This document shows, in pieces, positions 78-47,149 of a stretch of 64,000 bases of DNA. The stretch is from Lactobacillus sp. ESL0701. Lineage in GTDB: Bacteria; Bacillota; Bacilli; Lactobacillales; Lactobacillaceae. A program made the position numbers and the translations under genes. Positions within the stretch are counted from its first letter, which is position 1. Each line of letters starts with the position of its first letter. The stretch is taken from the NCBI RefSeq assembly GCF_029433445.1, contig NZ_JAQTIC010000003.1, forward strand, positions 1 through 64,000. The letters are read 5' to 3'. The notes under the pieces were generated by a model. The model worked only from the letters and a program-made list of their open reading frames with translations, did not search any database and was not told where the DNA came from.

Positions 78-150
78 GGAGGATTAGCTCAGCTGGGAGA
101 GCATCTGCCTTACAAGCAGGAGGTCACAGGTTCGAGCCCTGTATCCTCCA
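78..150 (+). tRNA. tRNA-Val (TAC)
   Basis: 73-nt cloverleaf; acceptor GGAGGAT pairs with ATCCTCC, anticodon loop CTTACAA. First tRNA behind the 5S. CCA is not fully encoded. Confidence 0.95.
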
Positions 151-154
151 TACC

Positions 155-227
155 GAGTCGTTAGCTCAGTCGGTAGAGCATCTGACTTTTAATCAGAGGG
201 TCGACGGTTCAAGCCCGTCACGACTCA
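155..227 (+). tRNA. tRNA-Lys (TTT)
   Basis: Acceptor GAGTCGT/ACGACTC with discriminator A; anticodon loop CTTTTAA flanked by TCTGA/TCAGA. Confidence 0.95.
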
Positions 228-239
228 TGGCCCCATTTT

Positions 240-321
240 GCGGGTGTGGCGGAATTGGCAGACGCGCTAGATTTAGGTTCTAGTGTTTCAGGACGTGTGG
301 GTTCAAGTCCCACCACCCGTA
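240..321 (+). tRNA. tRNA-Leu (TAG)
   Basis: Class II tRNA of 82 nt with a variable arm; acceptor GCGGGTG/CACCCGT (closing G-T pair); anticodon loop TTTAGGT within CTAGA/TCTAG. Confidence 0.93.
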
Positions 322-353
322 TTTGCCAATATTATGTACCATATTTACATTTT

Positions 354-426
354 GCCGATTTAGCTCAGTTGGTAGAGCATCTGTCTTGTAAACAGGGGGT
401 CGTACGTTCAAATCGTATAATCGGCA
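354..426 (+). tRNA. tRNA-Thr (TGT)
   Basis: Acceptor GCCGATT/AATCGGC; anticodon loop CTTGTAA. Confidence 0.95.
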
Positions 427-438
427 TTTATATATTAC

Positions 439-510
439 GCGGAAGTAGTTCAGTGGTAGAACATCACCTTGCCATGGTGGGGGTCGCGGGTTCGAATCCC
501 GTCTTCCGCT
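439..510 (+). tRNA. tRNA-Gly (GCC)
   Basis: Acceptor GCGGAAG/CTTCCGC with discriminator T; anticodon loop TTGCCAT within CACC/GGTG. Confidence 0.95.
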
Positions 511-519
511 TCATTACTT

Positions 520-605
520 GCCGGGGTGGCGGAATTGGCAGACGCACGGGACTTAAAATCCCGCGGTTGGTTTCAACCGTACCGGTTCGACTCCGGTCCT
601 CGGCA
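520..605 (+). tRNA. tRNA-Leu (TAA)
   Basis: Class II tRNA of 86 nt; anticodon loop CTTAAAA within CGGGA/TCCCG; long variable arm; acceptor GCCGGGG with CCTCGGC (one G-T pair). Confidence 0.93.
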
Positions 606-614
606 TATAATGAC

Positions 615-688
615 GCGCCCTTAGCGCAACTGGATAGAGTGTCTGACTACGAATCAGAAGGTTGAAGGTTCAAATCCTTCAGGGCGCA
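615..688 (+). tRNA. tRNA-Arg (ACG)
   Basis: Acceptor GCGCCCT/AGGGCGC; anticodon loop CTACGAA. The A at position 34 is the usual inosine site for CGN reading. Confidence 0.95.
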
Positions 689-694
689 TTATCT

Positions 695-768
695 CGGGAA
701 GTGGCTCAGTTTGGTAGAGCACCTGGTTTGGGACCAGGGGGTCGCAGGTTCGAATCCTGTCTTCCCGA
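695..768 (+). tRNA. tRNA-Pro (TGG)
   Basis: Acceptor CGGGAAG/CTTCCCG; anticodon loop TTTGGGA within CCTGG/CCAGG. Confidence 0.95.
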
Positions 769-809
769 TTGTAATCTTATATTTTATTGGTTACTTTTAT
801 TAATTTTTT

Positions 810-883
810 GGCGGTGTAGCTCAGCTGGCTAGAGCGTCCGGTTCATACCCGGGAGGTCGAGGGTTCGATCCCCCCCGCCGCTA
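810..883 (+). tRNA. tRNA-Met (CAT), elongator type
   Basis: 74 nt, anticodon loop TTCATAC. The acceptor GGCGGTG pairs with CGCCGCT through a closing G-T. It closely resembles the elongator tRNA-Met of bacilli. The T-stem contains one A-C mismatch (GAGGG against CCCCC). Confidence 0.85.
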
Positions 884-894
884 TACTAGAGCTT

Positions 895-968
895 GGACCT
901 TTAGCTCAGTTGGTTAGAGCAGACGGCTCATAACCGTCCTGTCGTAGGTTCGAGTCCTACAAGGTCCA
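895..968 (+). tRNA. tRNA with CAT anticodon, probably tRNA-Ile2 (lysidine type)
   Basis: Acceptor GGACCTT/AAGGTCC, anticodon loop CTCATAA. It is neither the initiator (no C1-A72 mismatch) nor the same as the elongator-like copy just upstream. Its body resembles the minor tRNA-Ile of Bacillus whose C34 becomes lysidine. The Ile2 assignment is an inference; a second elongator tRNA-Met is the alternative. Confidence 0.7.
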
Positions 969-1002
969 TAAACTGGATTTTGTACTTTTATTTTTAAAAC
1001 AT

Positions 1003-1076
<74 letters not shown>

Positions 1077-1078
1077 TT

Positions 1079-1152
1079 GGTCCATTGGAGCAGTGGTTTA
1101 TCTCGTCTCCCTGTCACGGAGAAGATCATCAGTTCAAATCTGATATGGACCG
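1079..1152 (+). tRNA. tRNA-Asp (GTC), copy 1
   Basis: Acceptor GGTCCAT/ATGGACC, discriminator G; anticodon loop CTGTCAC. Identical to the copy at 2471. Confidence 0.95.
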
Positions 1153-1158
1153 TAAGAT

Positions 1159-1231
1159 GGCTCGGTAGCTCAGTTGGTAGAGCAAAGGATTGAAGCTCCT
1201 TGTGTCGGCGGTTCGATTCCGTCCCGCGCCA
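1159..1231 (+). tRNA. tRNA-Phe (GAA), copy 1
   Basis: Anticodon loop TTGAAGC. Acceptor GGCTCGG faces CCGCGCC, leaving a T4-C69 mismatch. The identical copy at 2551 has the same mismatch. Confidence 0.93.
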
Positions 1232-1252
1232 TTATTGTTATATTAATTTGTT

Positions 1253-1323
1253 GCGGGTATGGTTTAGTGGTAAAACGAAAGCCTTCCAAGCTTTAGTCGC
1301 GAGTCCGATTCTCGTTACCCGCT
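1253..1323 (+). tRNA. tRNA-Gly (TCC)
   Basis: Acceptor GCGGGTA/TACCCGC; anticodon loop CTTCCAA. Confidence 0.95.
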
Positions 1324-1328
1324 TTAAT

Positions 1329-1402
<74 letters not shown>

Positions 1403-1404
1403 TT

Positions 1405-1494
1405 GGAGACTTACTCAAGTGGCTGAAGAGGCGCCCCTGCTAAGGGTGTAGATCGGGTTATTCCGGTGCGAGAGTTCGAATCCCTCAGTCTCCG
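1405..1494 (+). tRNA. tRNA-Ser (GCT)
   Basis: Class II tRNA of 90 nt with a long variable arm; anticodon loop CTGCTAA; acceptor GGAGACT/AGTCTCC. Last tRNA of the rRNA-linked cluster, followed by a terminator. Confidence 0.94.
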
Positions 1495-1500
1495 TAGTAT

Positions 1501-1534
1501 AAAGGAATCTTGTTAGTTCAAGGTTCCTTTTTTT
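1501..1534 (+). terminator. Terminator of the rRNA-tRNA operon
   Basis: AAAGGAA pairs with TTCCTTT across a 16-nt loop and is followed by a T run. Confidence 0.8.
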
Positions 1535-2034
1535 GTCTTCAAATTTTAAAATCTCATATTTTTTGTTAGCTTTAATGAGTAATTAGCTGATAACTTATAA
1601 ATTGCTTTGTCAAATTAGCAATAAAGCGATACTTGCTAGTAGTTAAGAAACTAATATCTATAAGAGAAGAATAGGGGGCGTACTTGGCTTAAAAGGGTAA
1701 CAATGGGATTAGTAGTAGCAATGTGCCTACTAAAAATAAAATAATTTGGAACAAGTAGCAGGTAAAGCAAAACTTTTAAGTATGAATTATAGATAATAAT
1801 TAATAACTTTCTGTTTAACTCGGCGACAGGAGATGACTTATTACTAAAATTAATCATCAATAGAAGTTAAAGTTATGGATGAGACAATTTCATTGATGCT
1901 AATAAGCAAGAAAATTAACAGCAAATTAGCTATTAATACTAGGAAATTGGCTAAAAAGTGACACAAAAAAGCATTGATAAATTAGGCTTAATGCGCTTTC
2001 TAAATAAAAAACGAAATATTTTTGAATAAAAGTC
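1535..2034. other. AT-rich spacer between tRNA clusters, no gene seen
   Basis: About 500 bp with no convincing gene. A 69-codon minus-strand frame exists (1651-1860) but has no ribosome binding site and no recognisable sequence. The right end leads into tandem promoters for the second tRNA cluster. Confidence 0.6.
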
Positions 2035-2063
2035 TTGCAAGATGACGTCTAATCCTGTATTAT
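2035..2063 (+). promoter_or_regulatory. Promoter P1 of second tRNA cluster
   Basis: TTGCAA, 17-nt spacer, TATTAT. Upstream of P2 and reading towards the tRNA-Glu. Confidence 0.6.
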
Positions 2064-2120
2064 TAATAACGTTGTGATTGAGGTATCGCCTGATAGCTCT
2101 GAATTACAAAAATAAAATAG

Positions 2121-2149
2121 TTGACTTTTTAATTAATATTAGGTATTAT
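2121..2149 (+). promoter_or_regulatory. Promoter P2 of second tRNA cluster
   Basis: TTGACT, 17-nt spacer, TATTAT, starting 37 bp before the tRNA-Glu. Near-consensus sigma-A promoter. Confidence 0.75.
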
Positions 2150-2186
2150 AATTAAGCGTCTTATGTATTAAGAAGAAAACGAATAT

Positions 2187-2258
2187 GACCCGTTGGTCAA
2201 GTGGTTAAGACATCGCCCTTTCACGGCGGTAACATGGGTTCAAATCCCGTACGGGTCA
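2187..2258 (+). tRNA. tRNA-Glu (TTC)
   Basis: Acceptor GACCCGT/ACGGGTC; anticodon loop CTTTCAC. First gene of the second tRNA cluster. Confidence 0.95.
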
Positions 2259-2297
2259 TTACCAACAATATTGGTATATATATTATTTTTACATTAT

Positions 2298-2384
2298 GGA
2301 GGATTACCCAAGTGGCTTAAGGGGACGGTTTTGAAAACCGTTAGACGGGTTTCTCGTGCGTGGGTTCAAATCCCACATCCTCCT
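2298..2384 (+). tRNA. tRNA-Ser (TGA)
   Basis: Class II tRNA of 87 nt; anticodon loop TTTGAAA within ACGGT/ACCGT; acceptor GGAGGAT/ATCCTCC. Its last base is also the first base of the 241-bp repeat. Confidence 0.94.
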
Positions 2385-2394
2385 TTTAAAACAT

Positions 2395-2468
<74 letters not shown>

Positions 2469-2470
2469 TT

Positions 2471-2544
2471 GGTCCATTGGAGCAGTGGTTTATCTCGTCT
2501 CCCTGTCACGGAGAAGATCATCAGTTCAAATCTGATATGGACCG
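2471..2544 (+). tRNA. tRNA-Asp (GTC), copy 2
   Basis: Identical to the copy at 1079; anticodon loop CTGTCAC. Confidence 0.95.
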
Positions 2545-2550
2545 TAAGAT

Positions 2551-2623
2551 GGCTCGGTAGCTCAGTTGGTAGAGCAAAGGATTGAAGCTCCTTGTGTCGG
2601 CGGTTCGATTCCGTCCCGCGCCA
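2551..2623 (+). tRNA. tRNA-Phe (GAA), copy 2
   Basis: Identical to the copy at 1159, including the T4-C69 acceptor mismatch. Confidence 0.93.
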
Positions 2624-2630
2624 TCAGCCT

Positions 2631-2712
2631 GGAGGAATAGCGAAGTGGCTAAACGCGGCGGTCTGTAAAACCGCTCTCTCTGAGTTCGGCGGTTCGAATC
2701 CACCTTCCTCCA
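2631..2712 (+). tRNA. tRNA-Tyr (GTA)
   Basis: Class II tRNA of 82 nt; anticodon loop CTGTAAA within GCGGT/ACCGC; acceptor GGAGGAA/TTCCTCC. Confidence 0.95.
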
Positions 2713-2716
2713 TAAT

Positions 2717-2787
2717 AGGGATATCGTATAAAGGTAGTACATCGGTCTCCAAAACCGCTAGTGTGGGTTCAATTCCTACTATCCCTG
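2717..2787 (+). tRNA. tRNA-Trp (CCA)
   Basis: Acceptor AGGGATA/TATCCCT with discriminator G; anticodon loop CTCCAAA. Confidence 0.95.
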
Positions 2788-2798
2788 TTTACCTTCAT

Positions 2799-2872
2799 GG
2801 CGGAATTGGTGAAGGGGTTAACACACCGGTTTGTGGATCCGGCATACATGGGTTCGAATCCCATATTCCGCC
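2799..2872 (+). tRNA. tRNA-His (GTG)
   Basis: Anticodon loop TTGTGGA. Eight acceptor pairs (GGCGGAAT/ATTCCGCC) include an encoded G-1 opposite C73, the tRNA-His hallmark. Confidence 0.95.
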
Positions 2873-2879
2873 CTAGTAT

Positions 2880-2951
2880 TGGGATATAGCCAAGCGGTAA
2901 GGCACTAGACTTTGACTCTATTATGCGCTGGTTCGAATCCAGCTATCCCAA
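2880..2951 (+). tRNA. tRNA-Gln (TTG)
   Basis: Acceptor TGGGATA/TATCCCA; anticodon loop CTTTGAC. Charging probably uses the GatCAB transamidation route encoded at 53490-56665. Confidence 0.94.
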
Positions 2952-2972
2952 TCTATTATTAAAATAGCTGAT

Positions 2973-3043
<71 letters not shown>

Positions 3044-3086
3044 TATGGTTCATTGCTAGAACTATTGGTTAATAATTAAATATCAT

Positions 3087-3171
3087 GGCGGTGTGGCGGA
3101 ATTGGCAGACGCGTCAGACTCAAAATCTGGTGTCCTTTTCGGACGTATCGGTTCGACCCCGATCACCGCTA
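3087..3171 (+). tRNA. tRNA-Leu (CAA)
   Basis: Class II tRNA of 85 nt; anticodon loop CTCAAAA within CAGA/TCTG; acceptor GGCGGTG/CACCGCT (closing G-T). Confidence 0.93.
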
Positions 3172-17577: not shown

Positions 17578-17597
17578 ACCTATAAATAGATTTTAGT

Positions 17598-17667
17598 CAC
17601 TAGGGGTGCGCTTAGCTGAGAATTACCCTTGGAACCTGAACAGGACAATGCCTGCGTTAGGGAAGTG
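17598..17667 (+). promoter_or_regulatory. TPP riboswitch (THI box)
   Basis: P1 is CACT/AGTG. The canonical blocks are all there in order: AGGGGTGC, GCTGAGA, ACCCTTGGAACCTGA, CAGG and AATGCCTGCGTTAGGGAAG. It senses thiamine pyrophosphate. The expression platform is the hairpin that follows. Confidence 0.95.
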
Positions 17668-17687
17668 TTTGAATAAGCATTTAACTG

Positions 17688-29834: not shown

Positions 29835-32234
29835 ATGGCAGTTGATTACGATTCACAAGAATATTTAAAGAGCGTCGATGCTGACTGGCGCGCAGCTAAC
29901 TATCTATCTGTTGGACAGCTTTTCTTAATGAGCAATCCACTATTAAAGCATGACTTAAAAGCCAGTGATGTTAAGCCTAAGCCGATTGGCCACTGGGGCA
30001 CAATTTCACCACAAAACTTCATTTATGCTCATTTAAATCGGGTAATTAAGAAGTACAACTTGGACATGTTCTATATCGAAGGTTCAGGGCACGGTGGTCA
30101 AGTAATGGTTTCTAATGCCTACCTTGACGGCTCATATACTGAACGCTTCCCTGACATCAAGCAGGATGAAGAAGGTATGGCTAAGTTATTCAAGCGCTTC
30201 AGTTTTCCGGGTGGCTCAGCTTCACACGCTGCTCCTGAAACACCGGGTTCATTGCACGAAGGCGGCGAGTTAGGTTATTCTCTCTCACATGGTACAGGTG
30301 CGATTTTGGATAATCCTGACGTAATTGCGGCCGTTGAAATTGGTGATGGGGAATCAGAAACTGGTCCACTAGCAACTAGCTGGTTCAGCGATAAGTTTAT
30401 CAACCCAATTAAAGATGGTGCCGTCTTACCAATCTTACAAATTAATGGCTTCAAGATTTCCAATCCAACCATTGTTTCGCGCATGACTGATGAAGAGTTG
30501 ACCAAGTACTTTGAAGGCATGGGCTGGCACCCATACATTATTTCTGCTTATAATGGCGGCGAATTTGATGGTTATAAGGATCATATGCAAGTTCACCAAG
30601 AAATGGCGAAGTTAATGGATACTGTGATCGAAGAAATCAAGGCAATCCAGAAGCATGCCCGTGAAAATAATGATGCAACTTTGCCACATTGGCCAATGAT
30701 CATCTTTAGAGTACCTAAGGGCTGGACTGGTCCTAAGTTTGACCTTGATGGTAATCCAATTGAGAACTCATTTAGAGCCCACCAAATTCCAATTCCGGTT
30801 GAACAAGACGATATGGAACACAAAGACATGCTGGTTGATTGGCTTAAGAGTTACAAACCAGAAGAATTGTTTGATGAAAATGGTGCCCCAACTGAAATCG
30901 TTAAGCAGAATATGGTTCATGGTGACCAAAGAATGGCAATGAATCCAATTACCAACGGTGGTAAAGATCCTAAGCGTTTGGCTTTGCCTGACTATCGTAA
31001 GTATGCATTGAAGTTTGACAAGCCAGGTTCAGTTGAAGCTCAAGATATGGCTGAATGGGCAAAATATTTGAGTGAAGTTGCTGACCTGAACCCTAATACG
31101 TTCCGCGGCTTTGGTCCAGATGAAACTAAATCCAACAGAATGTTCAAGCTGCTTGATGACCAAAAGCGACAATGGGGTGAGCAAATTCATGAGCCTAATG
31201 ATGAAAACTTGGCACCAAGTGGTCGGATTATTGACTCACAGTTGTCAGAACACCAAGATGAAGGTTGGCTTGAAGGTTATGTTCTAACTGGTCGTCACGG
31301 TTTCTTTGCTACTTATGAAGCCTTTGGTCGCGTGGTTGACTCAATGTTGACTCAGCACATGAAGTGGTTGCGTAAGGCTAAGGAACAATATTGGCGTCAT
31401 GATTACCCATCGTTAAACTTTGTTGCTACTTCTACTGTGTTCCAACAAGATCACAATGGTTATACCCACCAAGACCCAGGTATTTTGACTCATATGTACG
31501 AAAAGAACCGGCCAGATTTAATTCATGAATATCTGCCATCAGATACTAACTCACTGTTGGCAATTTCGCAAAAGGCCTTTACTGACCGTGAATGTATCAA
31601 TATTTTGGTTACTTCTAAGCAGCCACGACCACAATGGTTCTCAATTGATGAAGCGACTAAGATTGCCCAACATGGTTTGTCATACATTGACTGGGCTTCA
31701 ACTGACCAAAATGCTAAGCCAGATGTTGTCTTTGCTTCGACTGAAACTGAACCGACAATGGAATCGTTAGCAGCGATTGACATCTTGCACAAGGAATTTC
31801 CAGATTTGAAGATGCGCTACATTAACATCATTGATATTATGAAGTTGATGAACACCAAGGATAATCCAGAGGCAATTTCTGATGAAGAATTTGACCGCTT
31901 ATTCCCAAGCGATGTGCCCGTTATCTTTGCATGGCACGGCTTTAAAGCCATGATGCAATCAATCTGGTTTGGTCGCAAACGTGACAATATTCATATTCAC
32001 TGCTACGAAGAAGAAGGCGACATTACCACGCCATTTGATATGCGGGTAGTCAACGAACTTGATCGGTTCCACTTAGCTAAGGATGCTGTCTTGAGCGTAC
32101 CACGGCTGGCTGATAAGAGTGCTGGCTTTGTAGCTAAGATGGACAAGTTGCTTGCTAAACATCACCAATATATTCGTGATAATGGTGAGGATATGCCGGA
32201 AGTTACCGAATGGCAATGGACTGGTTTAAATTAA
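29835..32234 (+). CDS. xfp: Xylulose-5-phosphate/fructose-6-phosphate phosphoketolase
   Basis: 799 residues, the normal family length. Thiamine diphosphate enzyme: GSGHGGQ, the [19 protein letters not shown] cofactor region and [17 protein letters not shown] are family signatures. It cuts xylulose 5-phosphate (or fructose 6-phosphate) with phosphate to acetyl phosphate plus a triose or tetrose phosphate. Its thiamine need connects it to the riboswitch-controlled uptake genes at 17726. AAAGGAG precedes the ATG. Whether fructose 6-phosphate is also used cannot be read here. Confidence 0.96.
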
Positions 32235-32264
32235 GTCTAACTAATCAAATATCCCTCTAAATAG

Positions 32265-32302
32265 AGAAGAACCTAGTTTCAATTGAAACTAGGTTCTTTT
32301 TT
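32265..32302 (+). terminator. Terminator of the phosphoketolase gene
   Basis: AGAACCTAGTTTCAATT pairs with the following AATTGAAACTAGGTTCT, then six T. Confidence 0.9.
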
Positions 32303-32337
32303 GATAAAAATAGTGATTTTGCATGATCTGCTAACGA

Positions 32338-32361
32338 GTTTGGTAAAATTTTTTACCAAAC
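32338..32361. repeat. Perfect inverted repeat
   Basis: Arms GTTTGGTAAAA and TTTTACCAAAC, 11 bp each, separated by two T. Could be an operator or the foot of a hairpin. Confidence 0.6.
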
Positions 32362-32364
32362 AAA

Positions 32365-32483
32365 AATAACCGCTAAGCGTTCGCATCGCAACGGTTATTC
32401 TGTGAAATAATTAATGTTATGCCACCGCTAATAAGCGATGATTCTGAGTGCTGGCGATCCTATTGATAGTAGGATTGCTTTTT
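32365..32483 (+). ncRNA. Candidate small structured RNA, unclassified
   Basis: Three hairpins in order: AATAACCG/CGGTTATT (32365-32399), a small CGCT-AATA-AGCG stem-loop (32426-32437) enclosed by GCCA/TGGC, and GCGATCCTA/TAGGATTGC (32454-32478) followed by five T, a proper intrinsic terminator. No protein frame is present. Because the phosphoketolase already has a terminator at 32265-32302, this second terminator suggests a separate short transcript. I see no clear promoter, so expression is unproven. Confidence 0.4.
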
Positions 32484-32569
32484 ATTATTCACGGATATTA
32501 TAGTATGAGATTAGCATCGTGAACAAGAGATGCCTTTTGCAATTAATATTAATTTTTAACTGGTTTTTC

Positions 32570-32598
32570 TTGTTAAAATAAATGAAATTATTTATAAT
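32570..32598 (+). promoter_or_regulatory. Promoter of the P-type ATPase leader
   Basis: TTGTTA, 17-nt spacer, TATAAT. Predicted transcript start near 32605, directly before the structured leader. Confidence 0.75.
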
Positions 32599-32604
32599 TA
32601 ACTT

Positions 32605-32721
32605 AATCATAAGGGAGTAACAGCAATTACTTGCGATAAGCCCAACAGCCGAAAGCAAAACTTTCTGGACTTATCTTAATTAGTGAGACTTGTGTGCAGT
32701 ATGCATATAAGTCTCTTTTTT
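32605..32721 (+). promoter_or_regulatory. Structured leader with transcription attenuator, candidate riboswitch
   Basis: A 5' element with GGGAGTAA and hairpin GTAA/TTAC leads. Then comes a long hairpin GATAAGCCC (32635-32643) with GGACTTATC (32667-32675) and inner GAAAG/CTTTC. A terminator follows, GAGACTT (32685-32691) with AAGTCTC (32709-32715), plus inner TGTGCA/TGCATA and six T. GACTTAT of the middle hairpin is also complementary to ATAAGTC of the terminator, so the two folds exclude each other. It recalls Mn2+-sensing yybP-ykoY leaders of cation ATPases, but the conserved 3' part of that class is missing. Confidence 0.6.
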
Positions 32722-32735
32722 ATTAGGAGGTAAAA

Positions 32736-35402
32736 ATGGCCCAAGATTATTACAGACAGGCGGTTCAAGAGGTAGCTCGTGAATTAGGTACTTCACTGAG
32801 CGAAGGATTAACCGCAAGTCAAGTTAAACAGCGCCGTGAGCAATATGGTGCTAACAGTTTAGCTGGGAAGAAGAAGATTAGCTTGTGGCAACGCTTTTTG
32901 GCCCAATTTAAAGATTTTATGATTATTGTCTTGATTATTGCTGCGTTATTATCGGGATTTGTTGCCCAAGAGTGGACTGATGCGGCAATAATTATGATTG
33001 TTGTCTTATTGAACGCAATTTTGGGCGTTTTTCAAGAAGCACGTTCAGAAGAAGCGATTAATGCGTTGAAAAAAATGGCGACGCCCAGCGCGCATGTTAG
33101 GCGTAATGGTCAAGTTGTAGAAATTCCCAGTACTGATTTGGTGCCAGGAGACGTTGTTTTATTAGAGGCTGGTGATGTCGTTCCAGCCGATTTGCGCCTA
33201 ACAAGCGTCAACAGCTTAAAGGTTGAGGAATCGGCATTAACGGGTGAATCTGTCCCGGTTGATAAGCAAGACATACCGCTAGAAAAAGCGCAGGTTGCTC
33301 TGGCTGACCAAGACGACATGGCCTTTGCAAATACCAATGTTACTTATGGCCGTGCCGAAGGGATAGTTACCCAAACAGGAATGCACACTGAAGTTGGGAA
33401 AATTGCGACGCTGCTTAATAATACCGATGAAACTGATACGCCGTTGAAGCAAAATCTGAATCAGCTGGGAAAAACGCTGACGATTATGATTTTAGTAATC
33501 TGTGCGATTGTGTTTGCCGTTGGCTTTTTTACCAAACAAGGCACGGAGCCGACTGACAAATTAGCGATTGATATGTTTCTAGTAGCTGTATCGTTAGCCG
33601 TAGCGGCAATTCCGGAAGGACTGCCAGCAATTGTTACCATTATTTTGGCATTGGGCACGCAAGTAATGGCTAAGCACAAGTCAATTGTGCGCAAATTGCC
33701 TGCTGTGGAAACGCTAGGGGCAACTGACGTTATTTGTTCTGATAAAACAGGAACACTGACGCAGAATAAAATGACAGTTGAGCGGGTTTATTATGATGGT
33801 CAAGTTCATCAGGCTGCACAAGTAATCACTGCAAAAAATCCGGCTCTATTGGCAATGCTGCTAGCAAATGACACACGAATTAGCGACAAGCAGCTTTTGG
33901 GTGACCCAACAGAAACGGCTCTGGTTCAGTATGCATTCAACCAAAAAATTAATGTCCAAGAATTGTTGGCACAACATCAACGTGTGCAGGAAGTGCCGTT
34001 TGACTCTGAACGTAAGTTGATGAGTACCGTTAATCAAGCTGGCGATCATTTTTTGGTGGCGGTTAAGGGGGCACCTGACCAATTATTAAACCGGGTCACT
34101 AAAATTGAAAAAAATGGGCAAGTTATTCCAATTACTGCAGCCCAAAAGCAAGAAATTTTAGCAGCTAATCAAACTATGGCCGAACAAGCTTTGCGTGTAC
34201 TAGCTTTGGCATATAAAGTTGTTGAGCAGCCGTATGGTGAGCCAACAACTGATAATGTTGAGCAAGACCTTATCTTTGCTGGGTTGGTTGGGATGATTGA
34301 CCCAGAAAGACCTGAAGCAAAGGCGGCGATTGCGGAAGCCAAGCAGGCTGGCATACGAACGGTAATGATTACTGGTGATTTTCAAGTAACGGCACAAGCA
34401 ATTGCTCAGCGGCTGGGAATTATTGAACCGGGGCAAGACCAGCAAGTGGTTACGGGCGCTCAACTTGATGAACTAAGTGATGACTACTTGCAAGAGCATG
34501 TTGGTGATTATAGCGTTTATGCGCGTGTTTCACCGGAGCACAAGGTGCGGATTGTTAAGGCATGGCAGGCACAAGGCAAGATTGTGGCAATGACTGGTGA
34601 CGGTGTGAATGACGCGCCGAGTTTGAAACAAGCTGACATTGGGATTGGCATGGGGATTACGGGAACCGAAGTTTCTAAGGGTGCCAGCGATATGATCTTG
34701 GCTGATGATAACTTTGCCACGATTGTTGAAGCGGTTAAGCAGGGCCGAAAAGTTTTCAGTAATATTCAGAAGGCGATTCTATACCTGATGAGCTGTAATG
34801 TTGGTGAAGTGTTAACCGTCTTTATGATGACAATGCTTGGCTGGGATATTTTAGCACCTGTGCAATTATTGTGGATTAATTTGGTAACAGACACGTTGCC
34901 GGCAATTGCATTGGGACTTGAACCCGTAGAAAAAGGCATTATGAATCGGCGCCCGCGGGGTAAGAAATCCACGTTCTTCAGCGGCGGGGTAGCCAGTTCA
35001 ATTGTTTACCAAGGTATTTTGGAAGGCATATTAGTGCTGGTGACTTACCAGTTGGGACTTAATTTTGGTCCGCACCTTGCTAATAGCACCCTGCAGCATG
35101 AGGATGCATTAACCATGGCCTTTTTGACTTTAGGATTAATTCAGCTGTTCCATGCATTTAATTCCAAATACATTCACCAGTCAATCTTCACGAAGCGGAC
35201 ATTTGCTAATAAGTGGTTTAACTGGGCAATCCTAGTTTCTGCATTAGTGATGGTGGCAGTAGAATTGCCGTTCATGACGAAATTCTTTGACGTAACAGAA
35301 TTGAACGGCGTGCAGTGGTTAATCGTTTTGTTAGCTGGTATCTGCATGATTGTAATTGTGGAAGTTGTTAAATTCTTTGAAAGAAAATTGGGCGCGAAGT
35401 AA
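32736..35402 (+). CDS. P2A-type cation-transporting ATPase (Ca2+/Mn2+ class)
   Basis: 888 residues. Asp336 in SDKTGTLTQNKM is phosphorylated; TGES of the actuator domain and TGDGVNDAPSLKQADIGIGMG of the hinge are present. Ion-site residues lie in AAIPEGLPAIVTI (helix 4) and LLWINLVTDTLPAIALGLEP (helix 6), as in PMR1/YoaB-type pumps with a single ion site. It should expel Ca2+ or Mn2+ from the cytoplasm. AGGAGG precedes the ATG. The attenuator in its leader suggests control by the ion or by stress. Confidence 0.9.
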   Translation: MAQDYYRQAVQEVARELGTSLSEGLTASQVKQRREQYGANSLAGKKKISLWQRFLAQFKDFMIIVLIIAALLSGFVAQEWTDAAIIMIVVLLNAILGVFQEARSEEAINALKKMATPSAHVRRNGQVVEIPSTDLVPGDVVLLEAGDVVPADLRLTSVNSLKVEESALTGESVPVDKQDIPLEKAQVALADQDDMAFANTNVTYGRAEGIVTQTGMHTEVGKIATLLNNTDETDTPLKQNLNQLGKTLTIMILVICAIVFAVGFFTKQGTEPTDKLAIDMFLVAVSLAVAAIPEGLPAIVTIILALGTQVMAKHKSIVRKLPAVETLGATDVICSDKTGTLTQNKMTVERVYYDGQVHQAAQVITAKNPALLAMLLANDTRISDKQLLGDPTETALVQYAFNQKINVQELLAQHQRVQEVPFDSERKLMSTVNQAGDHFLVAVKGAPDQLLNRVTKIEKNGQVIPITAAQKQEILAANQTMAEQALRVLALAYKVVEQPYGEPTTDNVEQDLIFAGLVGMIDPERPEAKAAIAEAKQAGIRTVMITGDFQVTAQAIAQRLGIIEPGQDQQVVTGAQLDELSDDYLQEHVGDYSVYARVSPEHKVRIVKAWQAQGKIVAMTGDGVNDAPSLKQADIGIGMGITGTEVSKGASDMILADDNFATIVEAVKQGRKVFSNIQKAILYLMSCNVGEVLTVFMMTMLGWDILAPVQLLWINLVTDTLPAIALGLEPVEKGIMNRRPRGKKSTFFSGGVASSIVYQGILEGILVLVTYQLGLNFGPHLANSTLQHEDALTMAFLTLGLIQLFHAFNSKYIHQSIFTKRTFANKWFNWAILVSALVMVAVELPFMTKFFDVTELNGVQWLIVLLAGICMIVIVEVVKFFERKLGAK

Positions 35403-47063: not shown

Positions 47064-47149
47064 GCGGGCATGGCGGAATGGCAGACGCGCAAGACTAAGG
47101 ATCTTGTGATCGTTTTTAGATCGTGGAAGTTCGAGTCTTCTTGCCCGCA
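47064..47149 (+). tRNA. tRNA-Leu (AAG)
   Basis: Class II tRNA of 86 nt; acceptor GCGGGCA/TGCCCGC, anticodon loop CTAAGGA within CAAGA/TCTTG. A lone gene with its own promoter and terminator, far from the two clusters. Confidence 0.94.

Follow-up and report, generated by a model that had tools for sequence, protein, structure and literature searches.

The ATPase gene of Lactobacillus sp. ESL0701 at positions 32736–35402 is preceded by a compact leader, and the question raised by this locus is what the leader senses, if anything, and how it would control the gene. It lies on the forward strand of the 64,000-nucleotide stretch of DNA analysed here, referred to as the window, between a phosphoketolase-like gene (29835–32234, a label given by eye) and the ATPase gene. 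An earlier note on this DNA had described a riboswitch-like attenuator before a Ca2+/Mn2+-type ATPase, either a reduced relative of the yybP-ykoY Mn2+ sensors or a new ion-sensing class, and the first of these readings is now supported by folds and models. The leader (32608–32721) is very likely a three-way-junction form of the yybP-ykoY (Mn2+) riboswitch that acts as a transcriptional ON switch, by which the pump is probably made only once manganese builds up. This proposal is built on the fold and its covariation, a set of conserved residues, the overlap of the basal helix with a terminator, the nature of the gene and the kinship of covariance models. The sequence strings of the earlier note were all found, while its distance to the ribosome site, its estimate of promoter strength and the strands that it took for the switch had to be corrected.

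The downstream gene encodes a P2A-type cation (Ca2+/Mn2+) ATPase of 888 residues, as assigned by protein family and structure matches. It falls short of the curated cut-offs for PMR1- and SERCA-type pumps and passes the one for the PMCA type, and the solved structures closest to it are calcium-transporting ATPases, including lmo0841 of Listeria. A metal transporter gene of the exporter kind, as is characteristic of the family, thus follows the leader, with its ion and direction of transport predicted. Its ATG at 32736 is preceded by a ribosome binding site read from the sequence (AGGAGG, 32725–32730). Upstream of the leader, the promoter-like element TTGTTA-17-TATAAT (32570–32598, forward strand) agrees with the consensus at 10 of 12 positions, which bears out the match behind the "good promoter" of the earlier note but not its strength as evidence, because two such sites were found in the leader region against 1.8 expected in shuffles, a number that is by itself not beyond chance. 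In close orthologues, as judged by eye, the same promoter hexamers precede CATAAGGGAG. The transcript is expected to start just 5' of helix P1; the match to the Rfam family SSRC10 begins at 32609, and the ends of SSRC10 RNA have been mapped in Streptococcus pyogenes by circular RACE, by the account in PMC3675131. A second terminator-like hairpin at 32453–32479 probably marks the end of the phosphoketolase-like gene. Elsewhere the window carries a dense tRNA array (78–3171, 27 matches) with one further tRNA match at 47064–47149, and a TPP riboswitch over the Rfam cut-off at 17592–17680.

The leader folds better than 200 of 200 shuffled sequences (z −3.3). It ends in an intrinsic terminator (32685–32721) whose arms, 32685–32698 and 32702–32715, form 14 pairs, including the GAGACTT/AAGTCTC stem of the earlier note, and are followed by six T at 32716–32721; the region 32235–32800 contains three terminator-like sites, against 0.4 in shuffles. 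From the end of the T run it is 3 nt to AGGAGG and 14 nt to the ATG; the earlier note had put the ribosome site 15 nt away.

Ahead of the terminator the following architecture is read from the predicted fold and from comparison with relatives. The switch helix P1.1 pairs CATAAG (32608–32613) with CTTGTG (32689–32694), and it is followed by the internal loop L1, with GGAGTA on its 5' side (32614–32619) and GAGA on its 3' side (32685–32688), and by P1.2, which pairs AC (32620–32621) with GT (32683–32684). The predicted hairpin P2, GCAA-TTAC-TTGC (32623–32634), varies in size among relatives. In P3 the 5' strand GATAAGCCCA (32635–32644) faces the 3' strand TGGACTTATC (32666–32675) over ten positions with one C–A mismatch, a mismatch shared by 12 of 55 aligned leaders, the window included; the hairpin of the earlier note, GATAAGCCC (32635–32643) with GGACTTATC (32667–32675), is contained in it. 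The loop L3, ACAGCC (32645–32650), and the hairpin P3.1, GAAAG-CAAAA-CTTTC (32651–32665), complete this arm, and the joint J3/1, TTAATTA (32676–32682), leads back to P1.2 and occupies the place that P4 has in RF00080 members. When the terminator is left out, the minimum-energy fold (−16.9 kcal/mol) contains P1.1, P3 and P3.1. Unconstrained folds pair L1 with the P2 region, replacing P1.2 and P2, an outcome that energy folds computed without metal or tertiary contacts may give.

That this leader is a real, conserved element is clear from its relatives. Loci were gathered solely by the similarity of their ATPase proteins, and the best 80 of 583, a sample leaning to close relatives, were scanned with a motif pattern. 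Every one of the 80 has the element ahead of the ATPase, and in 79 the distance to the beginning of the protein match is 47–400 nt. The remaining locus, L067 of Lapidilactobacillus bayanensis, has its leader (1488–1581) 928 nt from the ATPase, with repeated-looking sequence between them, as judged by eye. Because the collecting pattern prescribes GAGTA(A/G)C and G(C/T)GAGAC, the invariance of L1 is to some extent circular, which does not apply to P1, P3, L3 and the joint. Comparative folding of the orthologous leaders was positive, with covariation in P1, P1.2 and P3. In a structure-blind MAFFT alignment (A1) of 55 of the 123 distinct aptamers, hand-picked and with near-duplicates and long-armed forms mostly omitted, 96.7% of the 990 cells of these three helices are paired. 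Eight of the 18 pairs, and 100 cells, show double changes (shuffle means 5.5 and 29.7), and the covariation score of 0.347 compares with 0.170 in shuffles and does not exceed 0.064 with the partner slid. The count of further pair types in A1 is not above chance (22 against 21.1 in shuffles, with 183 of 500 shuffles reaching 22). P3 by itself has 97.6% of its cells paired in A1, and 7 of its 10 pairs have changed on both sides. A second alignment (A2) comprises 93 hand-picked sources, 92 of them distinct, all matched at E up to 0.01 by R1, a model of the element described below; it leans towards structure, being fitted to the model, and shows double changes in 15 of 18 pairs and 289 cells, against a shuffle mean of 67.7. 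Since L130, L147, L148, L154 and L155 are not matched by R1 and are omitted from A2, counts of 93 of 93 refer to R1-matched leaders. The first pair of P1.2 is A–U in 73 and G–C in 20 of the 93 rows, with no other combination, although the collecting pattern left A/G and C/T free to vary separately.

The 5' arm of the terminator contains the whole 3' strand of P1.1 (32689–32694), as in known members of the family, and it is this sharing that would make the leader an ON switch. With the terminator sequence present, the terminator fold reaches −36.0 kcal/mol, against −18.7 kcal/mol with P1 forced. The arrangement was followed through 122 leaders, the 123 distinct aptamers minus Escherichia coli alx (L154). 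P1 has six of its six pairs in 84 of them, against 0.5% of shuffles, and a hairpin of at least six pairs runs from the P1.1 3' strand point into the T run in 115, against 7.1% of shuffles; the seven with fewer terminator pairs are L063, L064, L089, L090, L091, L109 and L120. The outermost P1 pair is unpaired in 15 of the 55 leaders of A1. The conserved competition is therefore that between P1 and the terminator. The earlier note had instead placed the competition in the segment GACTTAT (32668–32674) of the P3 3' strand, which is indeed complementary both to ATAAG (32636–32640) and to ATAAGTC (32707–32713). Within the window's clade, 9 of 26 leaders, that of the window included, have a perfect run of at least 7 nt between the P3 3' strand and the terminator 3' arm (32702–32715), compared with 0 of 89 leaders outside the clade and 0.2% of shuffles; the count was made on 115 leaders, the seven with short terminators being left out. 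As a conserved switch this pairing was rejected, since only 9 of the 115 leaders have it, all in the window's clade. Within that clade the complementarity is above chance, yet the conserved strands of both helices can yield it without any function.

The unpaired residues would form the metal site. L1, with its G-rich GAGUA-containing 5' side and its GAGA closing on P1, is present in the window, and its 5' side is near invariant in A2, partly by construction. The L3 bulge on the 5' side above P3 is also present with its invariant adenosine: C32646 and A32647 are invariant both in A1 (55 of 55 rows) and in A2 (93 of 93 rows), outside any collecting pattern, as is A32679 of the joint in 93 of 93 rows of A2. 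The earlier note had described the ACATAC part of the yybP-ykoY class as lacking; it is not wholly missing, as ACAGCC (32645–32650) stands at the place of the L3 loop that reads ACAUACU in the RF00080 consensus and UCAUUAC in the three RF00080 loci compared (L001–L003). The loop is 6 nt long in 17 of 17 rows of the window's clade, against 7 nt in the three RF00080 loci, and has no unpaired 3' side in any of these 17 rows; this shorter L3 means that the metal site may differ from that of RF00080 members. L3 varies in the diverged copies L115 and L116 and in other genera, and the fold is less clear there. Alignment with the Lactococcus lactis riboswitch suggests that the CA at 32646–32647 corresponds to C40 and A41, the position of A41 being drawn from the L. 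lactis letters, the RF00080 consensus and a published residue list. According to the source of that list (PMC9190785), the L. lactis Mn2+ site consists of G9, U39, C40, A41, U44 and C45, and N7 of A41 is the selector. The L1 5' side of the window would likewise match G8, G9, A10 and the residues that follow, A10 being reported to make an A-minor contact (PMC6754395). The window does not have the four-way junction with P4; it has a 7-nt joint instead, a length kept in 89 of 90 P4-less rows, against 16 nt in the three RF00080 rows. The four-way junction was not taken as defining, the S. pneumoniae mgtA leader being reported as three-way (PMC9495176).

A covariance search of the window with RF00080, as proposed in the earlier note, gave no match even at E 10 (gathering score 45 bits). 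The alx leader is a proven Mn2+ riboswitch. RF00080 missed alx of E. coli at E up to 1 and scored E. coli mntP at 41.6 bits, under its cut-off; the negative result on the window thus has little force, and RF00080 was set aside as a deciding test. The best Rfam match of the leader is RF02617, "SSRC10 sRNA", at 36.8 bits and E 9.9e-6 over its full length (32609–32720), under the gathering score of 56 bits. In S. pyogenes, SSRC10 is reported to lie before a gene for a "putative calcium transporter" and to give an RNA that ends in a terminator (PMC3675131). An ATPase matching that of the window accompanies all 30 of the best-scoring RF02617 loci (L004–L033) and 37 of 40 further loci (L114–L153). 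The three exceptions, L130, L147 and L148, also lack an R1 match and were taken as chance. R1, whose training set was confined to Lactobacillaceae and Enterococcaceae, with no P4-bearing sequence and no streptococci, gives rough E-values owing to a short calibration. Run over 57 sources, it found the RF00080 members L001–L003 at their exact places, with E from 1.3e-4 to 2.6e-3; the one evident chance match, at E 0.028, is no more than some tenfold worse than the weakest of these. It also matched other families, including loci taken as streptococcal (L025 and L026 at 7e-7, L019 at 1.5e-4), and among the 57 sources it missed E. coli alx and mntP together with L130, L147 and L148. In L019 and L026 the P2 region seems to have been enlarged by very roughly 100 nt, which separate the 5' part of the aptamer (GGGAGTAGC) from its 3' part.

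Among 198 Lactobacillales genomes, R1 at E up to 0.001 found the element in 162, whereas RF00080 passed its cut-off in 25, all of them in one family (f8), and RF02617 in 25; current Rfam thresholds thus miss these Lactobacillales leaders. None of the f8 genomes is among the 162, and another family, f4, appears to be streptococcal from its RF02617 scores. RF00080 gave 14 further matches under its threshold in the 198 genomes, and at least six of them coincide with R1 matches (G133 C5 at E 5e-7, G156, G090 C41, G113, G098 and G120). As R1 and RF00080 each see the other form poorly, their matches tell which form each family carries, and mixed cases are possible. The genome of the window has a single credible R1 match; a second one (G000 C10, E 0.028) overlaps the start of a short antitoxin-like ORF, as judged by eye, and was dismissed as chance. 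This genome also encodes another P2-type ATPase, 38% identical (G000 C11:126114–128840). R1 matches twice in several genomes of the genus, and in two genomes other than that of the window (L115, L116) a diverged leader copy precedes a second P-type ATPase about 44–45% identical to the one studied here.

Leaders of this kind are already known from streptococci. Papers citing the original work state that Mn activates S. pneumoniae mgtA through a riboswitch (PMC7674665, PMC11434433, PMC9495176), which two of them name yybP-ykoY (PMC11434433, PMC9495176) and one describes as a three-way junction (PMC9495176); in S. agalactiae the gbs0560 leader was called yybP-ykoY in 2015. Both precede a P-type ATPase, and the loci taken for streptococcal share with the window the P1–terminator overlap, the CA of L3 and the 7-nt joint. 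The window differs from them in having A–U and not G–C in P1.2, and its clade has 6 nt and not 7 in L3. The four-way RF00080 members of L. lactis (yoaB) and Xanthomonas oryzae, as they are described, have the same L1/L3 core, the same P1.1 switch helix and the same ON logic through a terminator: the P1.1 3' strand is reported to be partitioned between aptamer and terminator in L. lactis (PMC11087558), and Mn2+ to stabilise P1.1 in X. oryzae (PMC6754395). In contrast to these, the window has no P4, and its joint is shorter than in the three loci compared. RF02617, "Streptococcus sRNA 10", is matched over its full length and adjoins the same kind of ATPase; it is filed in Rfam as an sRNA gene and not as a riboswitch.

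The proposed model is that, at low cytoplasmic Mn2+, the terminator (32685–32715) would take the P1 3' strand (32689–32694) and transcription would stop before the gene. At high Mn2+, the ion would bridge L1 (32614–32619 and 32685–32688) and L3 (32645–32650), with A32647 as the predicted nitrogen ligand, so that P1 would be held, the terminator blocked and the ATPase made, which would then export the excess ion. We know of no experiment on such a leader in Lactobacillus, and no metal response or Mn riboswitch leader in this genus was found in the titles, abstracts and passages searched in the open literature, which included few subscription journals.

The identity of the ion is where the main rival lies. 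The same fold and the same P1–terminator switch could answer in Lactobacillus chiefly to Ca2+, or to acid via metal pools; this is unlikely, and still a live rival as far as Ca2+ is concerned. The gene is nearest to calcium ATPases, L3 is shorter in the window's clade, and the S. pneumoniae mgtA riboswitch, called Mn/Ca-sensing in PMC11434433, is reported in PMC9495176 to have an aptamer that binds Ca2+ more tightly than Mn2+. The S. agalactiae gene behind its yybP-ykoY leader is also reported to fall more than three-fold in expression after 20 min at pH 5.2. On the other hand, the mgtA leader is activated more by Mn2+ according to PMC9495176, the activation described in streptococci is by Mn, and every row of A2 has the adenosine matched to A41, the residue that selects Mn2+. 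A further reading, which we hold only tentatively and consider improbable overall, is that the riboswitch of the window's clade has been rebuilt on a smaller core, with no P4, a 7-nt joint carrying an invariant A and a shorter L3. The shorter loop would require the phosphate ligand of the metal site to be supplied differently; in these bacteria, which hoard manganese, the switch may then respond only above a much higher threshold or discriminate less strictly between Mn2+ and Ca2+, and the P3–terminator complementarity might serve as a second, weaker antiterminating pairing.

Three further explanations are much less probable. The RF02617 filing would make the element a trans-acting small RNA that adjoins the ATPase by accident, and SSRC10 is reported to form a distinct band in Northern blotting. 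A terminated riboswitch leader would produce the same band, however, and the constant company of the ATPase, both in the 80 loci fetched by protein and in the 30 best-scoring RF02617 loci, makes an accident very improbable. P1 and the terminator would suffice for a timing-dependent attenuator without a ligand, or for a leader bound by a protein, ligand binding being here a prediction; as such devices have no need for the invariant unpaired C32646, A32647 and A32679, this reading is given hardly any weight. The new ion-sensing class of the earlier note would agree with the failure of RF00080 on the window and with the absence of P4, but it is opposed by the same layout of L1, P3, L3 and P1–terminator and was rejected on the reciprocal, if weak, matches between R1 and RF00080 loci, which leave its probability close to nil. 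The Mn2+-responsive ON riboswitch remains the preferred reading.

The kind of leader described here is already known from streptococcal mgtA and gbs0560, as these are reported; what is new is its extension through much of the Lactobacillales, the 6-nt L3 loop found in the window's clade and the interpretation of RF02617 as a riboswitch leader, none of which was found in the titles and abstracts searched, with few subscription journals covered. RF02617 seems better understood as a manganese riboswitch leader than as an sRNA gene. The natural three-way-junction forms, with L3 loops of 6 and 7 nt, provide a set in which the effect of P4 and of L3 length on metal choice can be tested. For the biology of the order, these results suggest that, across much of the Lactobacillales, such ATPases are controlled by the metal switch already described in streptococci.
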